This document shows, in pieces, positions 10,585 to 63,591 of a stretch of DNA of 64,000 nucleotides. The translations under genes and the position numbers were made by a program. How positions within the stretch are numbered: the first letter of the stretch is position 1; every line of letters begins with the position of its first letter. A model generated the notes under the pieces. That model had not been told where the DNA came from and made no database searches. It saw nothing but the letters and a program-made list of their open reading frames with translations. Origin of the DNA: Eggerthellales bacterium (lineage in GTDB: Bacteria; Actinomycetota; Coriobacteriia; Coriobacteriales; Eggerthellaceae); assembly GCA_029225085.1 (NCBI GenBank), contig JAQXVU010000085.1:1-64000 (forward strand). Direction: 5' to 3'.

Positions 10585-10630
10585 ATGACCGAAAGAAACC
10601 TTCCCAAGAAACAAAAAAGTATCCCGAATA

Positions 10631-10713
10631 GGCAAGGGCGCTCGTCAGCGGTCCCTTATGGCTGCTTCCTCCCGGACCTGACCAGGTTCGGAACATGTCG
10701 CCGCCCATGCCCA
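10631..10713 (-). ncRNA. ffs: Signal recognition particle RNA (4.5S-type, small bacterial)
   Basis: On the minus strand the conserved apical domain GGTCAGGTCCGGGAGGAAGC is present (about 10660-10684). It is flanked by arms that pair at the ends: GGGCATGGGCG on the 5' side (from about 10712) with CGCCCTTGCC on the 3' side (to about 10631). A run of six T residues follows at about 10613-10618. The RNA binds Ffh and guides membrane protein targeting. The ends are approximate. Confidence 0.88.
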
Positions 10714-10972
10714 TTCGAGATACTCGAAATACAACGGGTGAAAGTATACCCCATACCAGGGCCGCTGTCGCATTTAGGGAGAAATTGAGTCATGATTCCA
10801 CAGTTTTTCTACCGCCTGCATAGGCACCTTCCACATCAGGTATATTCAGACTACGCAGTTCAGCCTGGCAATGCGACTGACCCCGGACGGCACGATGCGG
10901 ATTGGCTTTCGTTTCGCACGAGAACCCCCAGGGCACAGGCGTTGCGAGGCATTCACCACGAAAGGGGTTTAC

Positions 10973-12624: not shown

Positions 12625-13665
12625 CACCCCGTCTCGCATGGCGAGGCGGGGTGCTGCCATTCTGCTAATCCATTAAGCGGGTTAGTTGCCAGATGCCCCC
12701 GATTTCCCCCGATCGGGAATCCAATAGGCGGGTTGCGAGCCAGGGCCCTGCCATTAAGGCATGAGCGAGCCATCCTCGGTCGGGTCTTTGCCCGTCGCTC
12801 TTGGGGTGCCATCAGAGCGGGCTGGCGAGAAACGGACTATGTGCCAATCAGAGGGCCGGAAAGGGCAGCATTCTGGCTGGGAACCGAACATATGCGCACT
12901 TCTGGCCCCTCGACCCGGTCCGCCCTCCCTCGCCGAGCCCTCTCGACGCCCGTCGCATCCCCCGTTTCGCCCGTTCCGCCTGAAAGCGGGGCGCAATTCC
13001 GGTTCGAGGCGATGAGGGCCCGCCCCATGCCCGCTTCGAAGTGCGCATATGGTTCGTTCGTCGCCAATTCGCCCCCGAAACGGGGGGCAGGATTGGCACA
13101 TAGTCGATTTCCATCCGGGAAGTGGCATATGTTCCGTTCCCGGCCATCTGAGAAGATCGCCCAGCCCTCGATCGGGGAGGGCTGGCGACTTTCCCCATAT
13201 ATGACCTCCGGGATCCTGGCCTCGCGAGGTTTTGGGCGGATTCCCCGGTAAATGACCTGCGGCAAGGGGCCCCTTTCGACGCTCGGCGAAGAACGGGCCC
13301 CGCCAATGCCCGTTCGAGGCGGAAACGGGGCGCGACTTCAGCGAAAGCGCGTCGCCGACCATGCTCCACCCCTCCCGGACGAGGTCGCCCGAGGCATCCA
13401 TGGGTCATTTACCGGGGAATCCGGCAGAGGAGCCCGATTCAGCGCGATCGGGAGGTCATTTACCGGGAAAGTCGCCCTGGGCAGATGCGGGGGGAGCACT
13501 TCGCCACCGCCCTGGCAGGCGCCGGGAGCCCTCAGCGGGCGAGCGCATGAGAGCTTTTCGGCGGGTCTCCGCGCAGGCAACGCGGTCAGGGCGTCGGAGG
13601 ACCGATCCTGGCCTTCGCAGAGCGAAGCAGGTGCGGCCAGGACTCCGTTCCCCCGACGGCCCCGG
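12625..13665. repeat. Intergenic repeat element A, homologous to element B at 60.9 kb
   Basis: About 1,040 bp without a convincing gene, colinear with 60911-61612. The left tip is a hairpin built on GCACCCCG and CGGGGTGC; the right end is near TTCCCCCGAC. A motif resembling CGAACATATGCGCACTTC or CGGACTATGTGCCAATC occurs five times: plus strand at 12833 and 12885, minus strand at 13038, 13091 and 13119. A second motif, GGTCATTTACCGGG-like, occurs at about 13192 and 13243 (minus) and 13402 and 13452 (plus). Open frames exist on both strands, but the conservation follows the repeats rather than one frame. Confidence 0.8.
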
Positions 13666-60388: not shown

Positions 60389-60766
60389 GTGACTTTCGTT
60401 CTGAGGTGGATCGTCACCACCATCGCCGTCAGCATCGGCGTGTTCCTGATCCCTGGCATCACCCTCCCTTCTGACCAGGACGCTTACATCAGCATCATGA
60501 TCTTCAGCATGTTCCTGGCACTGTGCAACATGGGCATCAAGCCTATCCTGAGCTTCTTCAGCCTACCCATCACCATCCTCACCTTCGGCCTGTTCTCCCT
60601 GGTGCTGAACACCGCCATGGTGTACTTGGCGGCCATGTTGGCCAGCGCCCTGTTCCTGGTGGACATCCACATCAGCGGGTTCTTCACCGCCCTGATCTTC
60701 GGCATCGTGGTCTCGGTGATCTCGGCCCTCATCAACCTGTTCATGGGCATCGAGGACGACAAGTAG
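60389..60766 (+). CDS. YvlD-like phage-holin-type membrane protein
   Basis: A 125-residue protein with four predicted membrane helices; GIKPILSFFSLPITILTFGLF and LVLNTAMVYLAAMLA are typical of the YvlD/mycobacterial family-4 holin-like group. Function is unknown, with links to membrane stress. The start is a GTG with AAGGAGG 11 nt upstream. Alone on the plus strand, divergent from tilS. Confidence 0.85.
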   Translation: MTFVLRWIVTTIAVSIGVFLIPGITLPSDQDAYISIMIFSMFLALCNMGIKPILSFFSLPITILTFGLFSLVLNTAMVYLAAMLASALFLVDIHISGFFTALIFGIVVSVISALINLFMGIEDDK

Positions 60767-60910
60767 GATTCCCTTAAAATCTGGGAGAGCAGGGCGATAG
60801 CGGTGTGGCAGCGGTTCGATAGCGATGCGGCAACTGCACAATAGCGTCGCAATAGCCGCAACAGCATCGCCAAATACCCCACTCTTTTCATGCGAACTAG
60901 ATTTTTGGAG
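60767..60910. other. Spacer after the YvlD gene
   Basis: Contains GCGATAGCGGTGTGGCAGCGG and similar TCGATAGCGATGCGGCAACTG direct repeats (about 60794 and 60817). No gene. Confidence 0.5.
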
Positions 60911-61612
60911 GCACCCCGTCTCGCATAGCGAGGCGGGGTGCTGCTCTTTTCCTAATCCATTAAGCGGGGTGATTGCCAGATGCCCTTTATCGAGCCTTTG
61001 CCCACCGCTTTTCGGACTCGGGCAAGGCGGGCTGGCGAGAATCGAACTATATGCCAATCGTAGAGTCGAAAAAGAGCCCCTTCTGGCGGGAAATCGAACA
61101 TATGCACACTTCAGGCCCCACGCCCTGGTCGCCCCTTCTTCACCGAGGTCTCTCGACACCCGTTTTGCCCTCCCGTCGTGCCCCATTCCACCTAAAAATA
61201 AGACGTATTTTGGGTGTAAAGCGGGAAAGGCCCGCCATAGGCCCAGCTCGCCGCAGCCTCATTCCTGACCTGGCCCCGCTCGAAGGCTGCCCGCCCGCCG
61301 CGAAGTGCGCATATGGTTCGTTCGTCGCCAATTCGCCCCCGAAACTGGGGGTCGAATTGGCACATAGTCGATTCCCATCCAGAAAGTGGCACATGTCCCG
61401 TTTCCGGCCATCTGAGAAGATCGCCCTGGGCAGATGCGGGGGGAGCACTTCGCCACCGCCCTGGCAGGCGCTGGGGCCCTCAGCGGGCGGGCGCATGAGG
61501 GCTTTCCCGGCGGGTTTCGACGACAGCGACGCGGTCAGGGCGTCGGGGGGCCGATCCTGGCCTTCGCAGAGCGAAGCGGGTGCGGCCAGGACTCGGTTCC
61601 CCCGACGACCCC
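60911..61612. repeat. Intergenic repeat element B, homologous to element A
   Basis: About 700 bp, colinear with 12625-13665 but lacking about 310 bp of it. The left tip is the same GCACCCCG/CGGGGTGC hairpin (here followed by CTCTTTTCC, so it could end YvlD transcription). Motif copies: plus at 61043 and 61095, minus at 61302, 61354 and 61382. The spacings (52, 52, 28) equal those in A. The right end near 61612 is followed at once by a truncated gene. Confidence 0.8.
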
Positions 61613-61831
61613 GCAACGGGTGGCGGCATCTTCCACCCCTTAGTAAGGGCAGGAGAAATCGTCAGTGGCGGAACGCTCCTTGCCGAAATCGTCTCTCCGA
61701 TGACTGGAGAGGTTATGGAAGAGATATCCGCACCTGTGGGAGGCGTGGTATTCTTCACTTGCAATAAGCCCATGGTCACCGAACACGCCCTGCTGTTCCG
61801 CATCGTGCCCCGGGGCTTGGCAAACGCGTAA
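61613..61831 (+). pseudogene. C-terminal remnant of a succinylglutamate desuccinylase/aspartoacylase (M14-type) gene
   Basis: The frame TGGGIFHPLVRAGEIVSGG then TLLAEIVSPMTGEVMEEISA and PVGGVVFFTCNKPMVTEH matches the C-terminal barrel-like domain of AstE/AspA-family deacylases, which end with a GGxFxPxVxAGxxVxxG...GEVxxxxxAPxxG pattern. Nothing corresponds to the catalytic N-terminal domain; element B abuts the break. The gene is therefore truncated, and the ATG at 61580 lies inside the element. Confidence 0.65.
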
Positions 61832-62034
61832 CGCCGAACCAGCGCTCGCCTGCGATGCCCGCGCATCGCGACGAACATGAAGCCCGCACCCACCCGTGGC
61901 GCCTCCCTGTCACAGCAAGTGCGAAGCCGCGCCGACGGCCACGATGTTCACACGTCGCGGCAAGATGACACCCGCGCCCTCGGCCTACGCTCATCTCACC
62001 TATCCGCAGGCATCCGCCTGCAGTAAGGACCATC
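61832..62034. other. Non-coding region before the NYN gene
   Basis: About 200 bp. A promoter is expected but not identified. No repeats seen. Confidence 0.4.
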
Positions 62035-63591
62035 ATGGATAAGCAATCGACCGAGAAGCGTTTCGCGCTGCTCATCGACGCGGACAACGTCTCCGCAAAG
62101 TACTTGCAGCCCATCCTCGATGAGCTGTCTAAATACGGCACCGTCACCTACAAGCGCATCTATGGCGACTGGACGCTGGCCAGCCATGTTAAGTGGAAGA
62201 AGGTGCTGCTGGAGAATTCCATCACGCCTATTCAGCAGTTCGGCTACACCCAGGGCAAAAACGCCACAGACTCTGCCATGATCATCGACGCCATGGATAT
62301 CCTCTACACCAATTCTGTGGAAGGATTCTGCATCGTCTCCTCCGACTCCGACTTCACCCGCCTGGCTGTGCGCCTGCGCGAGGGCGGCCTCACCGTCATC
62401 GGCATGGGCGAAAAGAAGACCCCGGTGCCTTTCCGCAAAGCCTGCGACATCTTCACCACCCTCGAGCTGCTGGTGCAGGGTAACCGTCAGAGCAGCGGTG
62501 ACTTCACCAGCAAGGAGCTCATCGAGAAAGCCGTGGTAGACATCATCGCCACCAACCAAAACAACGGCAAGGGCACGGGCCTGGGCGAGATCGGAAGCCG
62601 CCTGCAGAAGCGCTACCCCGACTTCGACGTTCGCAACTATGGCACCAACCTGCTGTCCCGCCTGCTCGACGAGTTCGAGAGCGTGAAGATCGTCCGCGAC
62701 CACAACAACGTAGCGGTCATGCTCACCGAAGATGCCGAGGTCATGGGCAGGACGGCCCTCGACCTGAAGGGCCGCAAGCCCTCTCATTCCAAAGCGGAGG
62801 AGAACGGCAAGAAGGACAAGGGCGCGGCAAGCGACAGCTCCTCCGACAACGGTTCTCCCGACAACGACGAAAGCACTTTCGCCGGCATGTCCGATGATGC
62901 TGACGCTTCGTCTGCCGCGACCGCCCCAGACGCAGATGCAGCAATCGCCGATGCAAACGCTGCTAACGCTGGCGCTACGGAGGGCGAGCAGGAGGAGAGC
63001 AAGAGCGCAAAGCGCCGCCGCAAGCGCCGCAACTCCCGTAAGACCAAGAAGGTGGAAGCGGAGACCAGCGAGCAGGCCGAGAGCGAAGCTGGTGCCGAGG
63101 CCGCAACTGACGAGCACGCCGAAGTTGCAGATGAAACCCCAGCCGACGAGCAAACCAGCACCGAAGCTGAAACCCCAGCTAACGAGCAGACCGAAGGCGA
63201 AGCACCCGCCGAGCCTGAGACCGCTGAGCAGGTTGAAGCAGTTGAATCCGCCGGGGCTGAAGTCGAGGAGACTTCTACCGAGAACGCCGAGCCGGCCGCT
63301 GCTGTCGAAGCCAAAGAGGTTGCCGCCGAGTCTGATCAGCCCGTCGAAAACGAGCTGCCCGCCGACCTGGCTGCCGAAGTTGCCCGCGCCAACGACTTCA
63401 TCATGACCCGCTTGGGCAATGCCGGCGACGAAGGCATCCCCATGGGCAACCTCTCTAAGATGGTTCGCAACCGCTTCAAGCGCTTCAAGGTTCGCGAGCT
63501 GGGATTCCAGCATCTGCGCGGTTACCTCGAGAGCCTTGGCACCATCGCCATCACCAAGGAAGGCAACGAGTTCATCGCCCGCCTGAAGTAA
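62035..63591 (+). CDS. NYN-domain (LabA/PIN-like) RNase with two OST-HTH/LOTUS domains
   Basis: A 518-residue protein. Residues 10-140 are a NYN domain: ALLIDADNVSAKYLQPI, GNATDSAMIIDAMDIL-type and IVSSDSDFTRLAVRLRE supply the aspartates of a PIN-like nuclease. Residues 155-240 form an OST-HTH (LEKAVVDII...GEIGSRLQKRYPDFDVRNYG). A long acidic Ala/Glu-rich linker (about 245-445) follows, with a basic KRRRKRRN patch, then a second OST-HTH (PMGNLSKMVRNRFKRFKVRE). It likely acts on RNA. TAAGGA lies upstream of the ATG. Confidence 0.85.
   Translation: MDKQSTEKRFALLIDADNVSAKYLQPILDELSKYGTVTYKRIYGDWTLASHVKWKKVLLENSITPIQQFGYTQGKNATDSAMIIDAMDILYTNSVEGFCIVSSDSDFTRLAVRLREGGLTVIGMGEKKTPVPFRKACDIFTTLELLVQGNRQSSGDFTSKELIEKAVVDIIATNQNNGKGTGLGEIGSRLQKRYPDFDVRNYGTNLLSRLLDEFESVKIVRDHNNVAVMLTEDAEVMGRTALDLKGRKPSHSKAEENGKKDKGAASDSSSDNGSPDNDESTFAGMSDDADASSAATAPDADAAIADANAANAGATEGEQEESKSAKRRRKRRNSRKTKKVEAETSEQAESEAGAEAATDEHAEVADETPADEQTSTEAETPANEQTEGEAPAEPETAEQVEAVESAGAEVEETSTENAEPAAAVEAKEVAAESDQPVENELPADLAAEVARANDFIMTRLGNAGDEGIPMGNLSKMVRNRFKRFKVRELGFQHLRGYLESLGTIAITKEGNEFIARLK

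Follow-up and report, generated by a model that had tools for sequence, protein, structure and literature searches.

Elements B and A of the window

The window analysed here is a stretch of 64,000 nucleotides from an Eggerthellales bacterium. Between the genes for a small membrane protein (Phage_holin_4_2 family) and an NYN/LOTUS protein lies element B, an array of five sites of about 25 bp (61033-61410) with a step of 51 bp, an inner distance of 246 bp, and then steps of 51 and 29 bp. Element A, which is flanked by a Band-7 protein and a Mur-ligase family protein, follows the same plan with a step of 51 bp, an inner distance of 192 bp, and then 51 and 29 bp. Sites were placed with a 25-bp weight matrix, and the position of a site is its 5' end on its own strand. 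The features are as follows.

12823..13146, + strand: array of element A, sites at 12823 and 12874 (+) and at 13066, 13117 and 13146 (-)
13183..13477, + strand: type Z array inside A, sites at 13183 and 13234 (+) and at 13426 and 13477 (-); the site at 13234 is below the scan threshold and was placed from the spacing and by eye
60911..60985, + strand: left dispersed module beside B, a terminator-like hairpin that elsewhere also occurs without an array
61033..61057, + strand: site L1 of B, outer site of the two-site arm, starts TGGC, weight-matrix score 33.0
61084..61108, + strand: site L2 of B, 51 bp from L1, score 25.9
61190..61217, no strand: best internal imperfect palindrome of B, centre about 118.5 bp from L2, extent by eye
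61306..61330, - strand: site R1 of B, inner site of the three-site arm, score 22.1
61357..61381, - strand: site R2 of B, 51 bp from R1, score 20.4
61386..61410, - strand: site R3 of B, 29 bp from R2, outer edge GCCA, score 17.5
61416..61630, + strand: right dispersed module beside B, to the right of the array; its inner hairpin (61531-61611) is the commonest part

A preliminary description of this DNA had given B and A common motif distances of 52, 52 and 28 bp, which agree within 1 bp with the measured 51, 51 and 29, and had called their spacing identical. The latter is true of the steps within the arms but not of the inner distance (246 versus 192 bp), the inner segment of A being about 55 bp shorter, through a gap, than those of its sister copies. 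A piece of about 310 bp said to be present in A and missing from B is indeed so distributed, and represents a second array, of type Z. A similar hairpin sequence of about 20 bp precedes both the array of A and type Z, so this place can be explained equally well by tandem duplication and by insertion. The interval 60911-61612 had been taken as one element, but its left part (60911-60985) is a separate dispersed hairpin. BLAST within the window matched B to A in separate pieces, with 89-91% identity in three of them and 75% over the two-site arm. Apart from A and B, the remaining 62.2 kb of the window contained one weight-matrix match with a score of at least 12. A single 12-mer of the motif occurred three times in the window against 3.9 expected, i.e. 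not above chance, and the case thus stands on arrays rather than on lone words. A small SRP RNA gene of the bacterial type is located at 10622-10717 of the window, on the minus strand.

A family of arrays in one genome

A search of the whole genome (1.93 Mb in 91 contigs) with B (741 bp) returned 48 places, mostly single modules, and the left hairpin module, the central array and the right module of the B region were all found dispersed. The terminator-like left module (60911-60985) occurs at about ten other places, with and without an array, and the hairpin CTGGCC...GGCCAG at 61531-61611 occurs at more than 15, more often in the genome than any other repeat of the B region. The central 383 bp has six close copies, namely A, B and four others, and none of the 137 other family genomes has it. 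Several contigs (C74, C35, C70, C42, C32, C13, C12 and C71) terminate within or close to type Z or hairpin modules, and identical copies of these modules may therefore have been collapsed in the assembly.

A motif search over 25 positions, with up to three mismatches, gave 95 matches in the whole genome, which were clustered, versus ten for the reversed pattern. The weight matrix was built from 57 of these matches, so the scores of sites in those arrays are not independent of it; with it, 19 complete arrays of one plan were found in the genome, together with partial arrays and the related type Z. The count of 19 leaves out type Z, one array that lacks a third site (C43) and three partial arrays (C42, C7 and C67), some copies being truncated. 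In this plan, two forward sites separated by 50-52 bp are followed by an inner segment and then by two reverse sites separated by 51-52 bp, with a third site outside these; each complete array thus has one two-site arm and one three-site arm. In 18 of the 19 arrays the third site lies 29-30 bp past R2 and scores above the 99% level of random positions, although it is weak in C10a (11.0) and in C24b (6.7, placed by the expected spacing), and the R2 of C57 is likewise weak (5.8, placed by spacing). The nineteenth array, C47b, has an extra 52-bp step and then 29 bp. With all arrays turned to one orientation, none of the 19 has a third site past L1. The outer edges of the arrays mostly read 5'-TGG...CCA-3', and the length from outermost site to outermost site is 306-380 bp, C47b and C41 being longer when their extra sites are counted. 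Exact paired sites at the array spacing numbered 11 in this genome and zero in the control, and this genome is the only one of 396 in the class to have them, no exact paired motif having been found in the 395 others.

The arrays that were inspected by eye sit between likely genes. Array neighbours elsewhere in the genome include Hsp70, Lgt, an epimerase, a DEAD helicase, a transporter and GARS, and the ten flanking proteins that were searched are ordinary cell proteins with no common theme. About 10 bp outside L1 the left flanks often carry AGCCC followed by purines and G, possibly an extra contact or a target preference. At one locus (L067, about 1530-1660, contig C61), the third site is immediately followed on its outer side by tandem repeats of about 43 bp. 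A tRNA gene occurs within 300 bp of the array in three of 18 loci (L146 1989-2061, L148 1535-1607 and L151 1557-1629), each on the side of the two-site arm and in minus orientation relative to the locus, which is above a rough expectation.

The sites fall into different kinds, alpha (CGAAC-TATATG), beta (CTAAATG) and type Z, which differ in letters and share the plan. Sites of the same array resemble one another more than they do those of other arrays (identity 0.685 versus 0.595 when permuted, 12 arrays; none of 2000 permutations was as high). Within classes this coherence is weak or missing (p=0.18 for beta only, six arrays; p=0.75 for alpha only, four arrays; p=0.027 for a wider beta set of ten arrays), so that a few recognising proteins are probable rather than one for each array. 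The pattern would suit a few trans-acting specificities with a common geometry.

Constraint on sites, distances and the core

The sequence between the motifs had been described as diverged. The six close copies, which were picked by whole-element similarity and not by motif, bear this out, with an identity of 0.915 at the sites, 0.768 in the spacers and 0.776 in the core. The corresponding values are 0.733, 0.522 and 0.710 for the five copies of group I, and 0.594, 0.420 and 0.448 for five singletons, compared without C47b; both of these sets were found via the motif, and the excess of sites over spacers in them is therefore partly due to case selection. In the left arm of group I, the spacer (0.42) is near the level of the flanks (0.37-0.43), and the sites are at 0.62-0.80. 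Sites diverge less than spacers in all three sets, and further genomic copies exist in the form of the 19 complete arrays, which supports the earlier proposal that the spacing is kept by selection or by a copying mechanism.

Seven of 11 families, with cores that mostly do not align with one another, share an inner length of 202-204 bp; the rest have 182, 192, 213 or about 247 bp. A 10.5-bp period fits the five distinct inner lengths with p~0.025, but 11.0 fits better and there are only five values, so the helical register of the inner lengths is only suggestive.

The inner segment contains, on average over the families, a palindrome-like core. The mean complementarity of 12 families is highest at 107 bp from L2, where 6.71 of 14 positions pair; the profile as a whole averages 3.70, and none of 200 shuffles exceeds 5.36. 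The orientation of C43 was picked after its core had been seen, and without C43 the peak is still, by arithmetic, about 6.3. The core spans 35 bp in a 14-7-14 layout, typically GATAATCCACA, 13 bases and TGTGGATTATC, or a degenerate version of it. The core centre (the middle 7 bp) varies between families and is fairly constant within them (identity 0.84-0.86). A separate identity comparison of the 35-mers covered seven families, each in its best register. B has only five of 14 pairs at the standard place (centre 107) and no good palindrome there; its best palindrome is about one turn further in, its core being shifted or decayed. In C62, and less clearly in C22, the palindrome is about one turn nearer, and a clear one is missing in C41/C47a, C24a and type Z. 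In a half array of two sites (L056 1450-1622, contig C7), a palindrome is still present at about 106.5 bp from the inner site and immediately precedes a gene.

In group I, a 24-bp palindrome and the 35-mer are conserved at 0.958 and 0.871, respectively, against 0.53-0.60 elsewhere, and these two parts look like the footprint that bound proteins might leave. No part of group I is better conserved than this palindrome, TACACATATC..GATATGTGTA (e.g. L156 1128-1151), which did not turn up in the other groups. For the group of B, the 35-mer (0.796) is barely above the core mean (0.773). Folded as single-stranded DNA, four of five cores form hairpins that beat nearly all shuffles, the exception being C57.

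Possible mobile elements, recombination sites or chromosomal loops

From the directly observed sites, steps, arm asymmetry, average core position, site classes and dispersal, we tentatively favour, at a probability just short of even, the reading that the arrays are non-autonomous, transposon-like elements with multi-site ends in the style of Tn7 or IS21, folded by a central site. Each array would be one such short element (about 305-420 bp), and its ends would be asymmetric binding platforms, one with two sites about 51 bp apart, the other with three at steps of about 51 and 29-30 bp. A recombinase supplied in trans, presumably a transposase, would bind the 25-bp bipartite sites, and the core, located some 107 bp inward of the two-site arm, would bend or fold the element and serve synapsis, letting the ends pair. 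Pairing of the ends through a folded core would explain the fixed distances, and the elements would move or have moved. Similar copies are dispersed at unrelated places, and in two of them (C45 and C71) similarity to close relatives stops at the outermost site; that of C45 ends at ...GCCA, and in C71, which carries a copy of type Z, the flanks are unrelated on either side. The target-site duplications that the preliminary description proposed to seek at the boundaries did not appear in a convincing form. For 12 of the 19 arrays and 19 lengths, k=9 gave p=0.01 and k=15 gave p=0.0007 with no consistent length, and in a larger set (without C47b and C24b) and seven lengths, k=9 gave p=0.005, none being convincing. 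No two copies in the genome are nearly identical, so nothing points to movement in the recent past, although copies that were identical would have been merged in an assembly of 91 contigs. A minimal transposon would not require the conserved sub-sites found within the element, and a fixed inner length is not known from elements of this type.

Several known systems resemble the arrays in part. The ends of Tn7-like elements are asymmetric, with sites of about 20 bp at helical-pitch spacing and no cross-mobilisation of related elements (PMC10201428, PMC13370975). The TnsB sites of Tn7-like and CAST ends share with the arrays several sites per end, left/right asymmetry and a common plan with different sites (PMC10201428, PMC13370975), the asymmetry being present in 18 of 19 arrays and, with one more step, in the nineteenth. 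Unlike these elements, the arrays are only about 305-420 bp long, are geneless, and have a nearly fixed inner length and a palindrome-like core, and no TnsB or target duplication was found for them. IS21 requires two repeats per end and ends in CA (PMC10122671). Its ends (L1/L2 and R1/R2) likewise consist of direct repeats that are inverted between the ends, with an outer TG...CA, and the units of the one IS21 of this genome (contig C75, with the sole IstB above the cut-off) start with TGGC, as array sites do. However, the steps are about 51 and 29-30 bp in the arrays versus about 23 bp in IS21 (23 bp at the right end of the C75 copy, about 20-24 bp by eye in the IS21s of relatives), the sites are 2+3 versus 2+2, and istA and istB are absent from the arrays, which are too short for genes. 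The C75 contig has no site within three mismatches of the motif consensus, and IS21 ends were rejected as the parent, since they look alike by eye but score above column shuffles only through TGGC, the value without it being 1.62 versus 1.24 +- 0.82. Like bacterial MITEs, the arrays are short, non-coding, intergenic and dispersed, with inverted ends and no gene of their own; unlike them, they have a rigid internal layout, show no target duplication, comprise no identical copies and could be traced to no parent element. By analogy, the plan would work like the multi-site transposon ends of Tn7, Mu or IS21 with a central folding site added, and it also resembles lambda attP.

No matching transposase or linked gene was found for the arrays, and no parent element was recognised by its end pattern in the genome itself (91 contigs) or in 137 family genomes, the search giving four stray single matches. 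PF00665 had one match (C89), an rve-type transposase whose surroundings make it look IS3-type; PF05621 had one weak match in an 862-aa frame; PF09299 had none, its control being silent too. Other identities, among them RNA and a phage, plasmid or viral origin, were also rejected: no Rfam family was found at the arrays of the window and 18 loci, the central 383 bp had no match in plasmids or phages, neither an exact match of one 25-base site nor a paired motif was found in viral contigs, and no sigma-70-like site was found in 60760-62040 that would suggest a promoter array. Replication-oriented sites were set aside since array orientation has no evident relation to GC skew. The searches made of the literature yielded no title describing such arrays, a statement confined to those searches.

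Three other readings compete with that of transposon-like elements. The arrays might be recombination sites like phage lambda attP, with an inverted-repeat core, a centre of about 7 bp for strand exchange, 2+3 arm sites bound by the protein of the core or by a partner, and loops in helical register. The 14-7-14 core at 107 bp from L2 (6.71 of 14 pairs over 12 families), with a centre that varies between families and is fairly constant within, has this form, as do the five arm sites and the proposed looping, and a tRNA gene lies within 300 bp of three arrays. The att site of lambda measures 240 bp and has five arm-type sites (PMC4880445). On the contrary, about twenty whole sites scattered over a chromosome would make no sense for ordinary integration, and no integrase is linked to them. 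The genome has three PF00589 recombinases (two Xer-like and one phage-type integrase, named by reading), and no array site lies within 1.5 kb of any of them. Lambda arm sites are shorter than 25 bp, and the 25-bp bipartite sites of the arrays thus exceed them; the core sequence is also variable. The att-like geometry of an inverted core with arms on both sides belongs to the family average, not to every array and not clearly to B, and several families, that of B among them, lack a good palindrome at the standard place. We therefore regard this reading as quite unlikely. That the arrays are ordinary intergenic repeats in decay, relics whose spacing is merely inherited, would agree with their occurrence among many other dispersed intergenic modules and with the truncated copies (C7, C42 and C67), but relics would decay evenly, whereas the sites here diverge less than the spacers and the inner length is kept within 2 bp even though the cores are near the level of unrelated sequence (0.448 in singletons), and we hold it to be highly improbable.

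A function for the host is unlikely too, if less so. Two or three related host proteins would then form DNA loops at the arrays, for nucleoid organisation or regulation, and selection instead of movement would keep these sites at fixed places in the chromosome. Old, diverged copies do keep their sites, spacing and core position (group I spacer 0.42), the core sub-sites of group I stand at 0.96 and 0.87, seven of 11 families share an inner length of 202-204 bp, and the positions are intergenic, by eye, next to ordinary cell proteins (ten searched). Nonetheless, arm orientation in the 19 arrays has, by eye, no evident relation to local GC skew, the flanking genes have no theme, several distinct site classes are unexpected for one host protein, and the similar copies at dispersed places look mobile, the edges of two of them coinciding with outermost sites. 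A broader possibility, to which we give some weight while doubting it, is an undescribed class of chromosomal nucleoprotein site, restricted to one genome among those searched, that would have 2+3 arm sites in a fixed register, a palindrome-like core and two or three specificities, and would fold about 300 bp into a loop for recombination or chromosome folding by unlinked proteins.

Bacterial repeats of the dispersed, non-coding sort tend to be simple. In these arrays, wide drift of the sequence between sites goes together with distances held to 1-2 bp, and, judging from this pattern, each array looks like a landing frame for a DNA-moving or DNA-folding protein. The distances that a protein-DNA complex tolerates can thus be read directly from one genome. 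As mobile elements, the arrays would form a natural series of minimal multi-site transposon ends in which synapsis spans a very short loop; otherwise, they would represent a new kind of chromosomal loop site.
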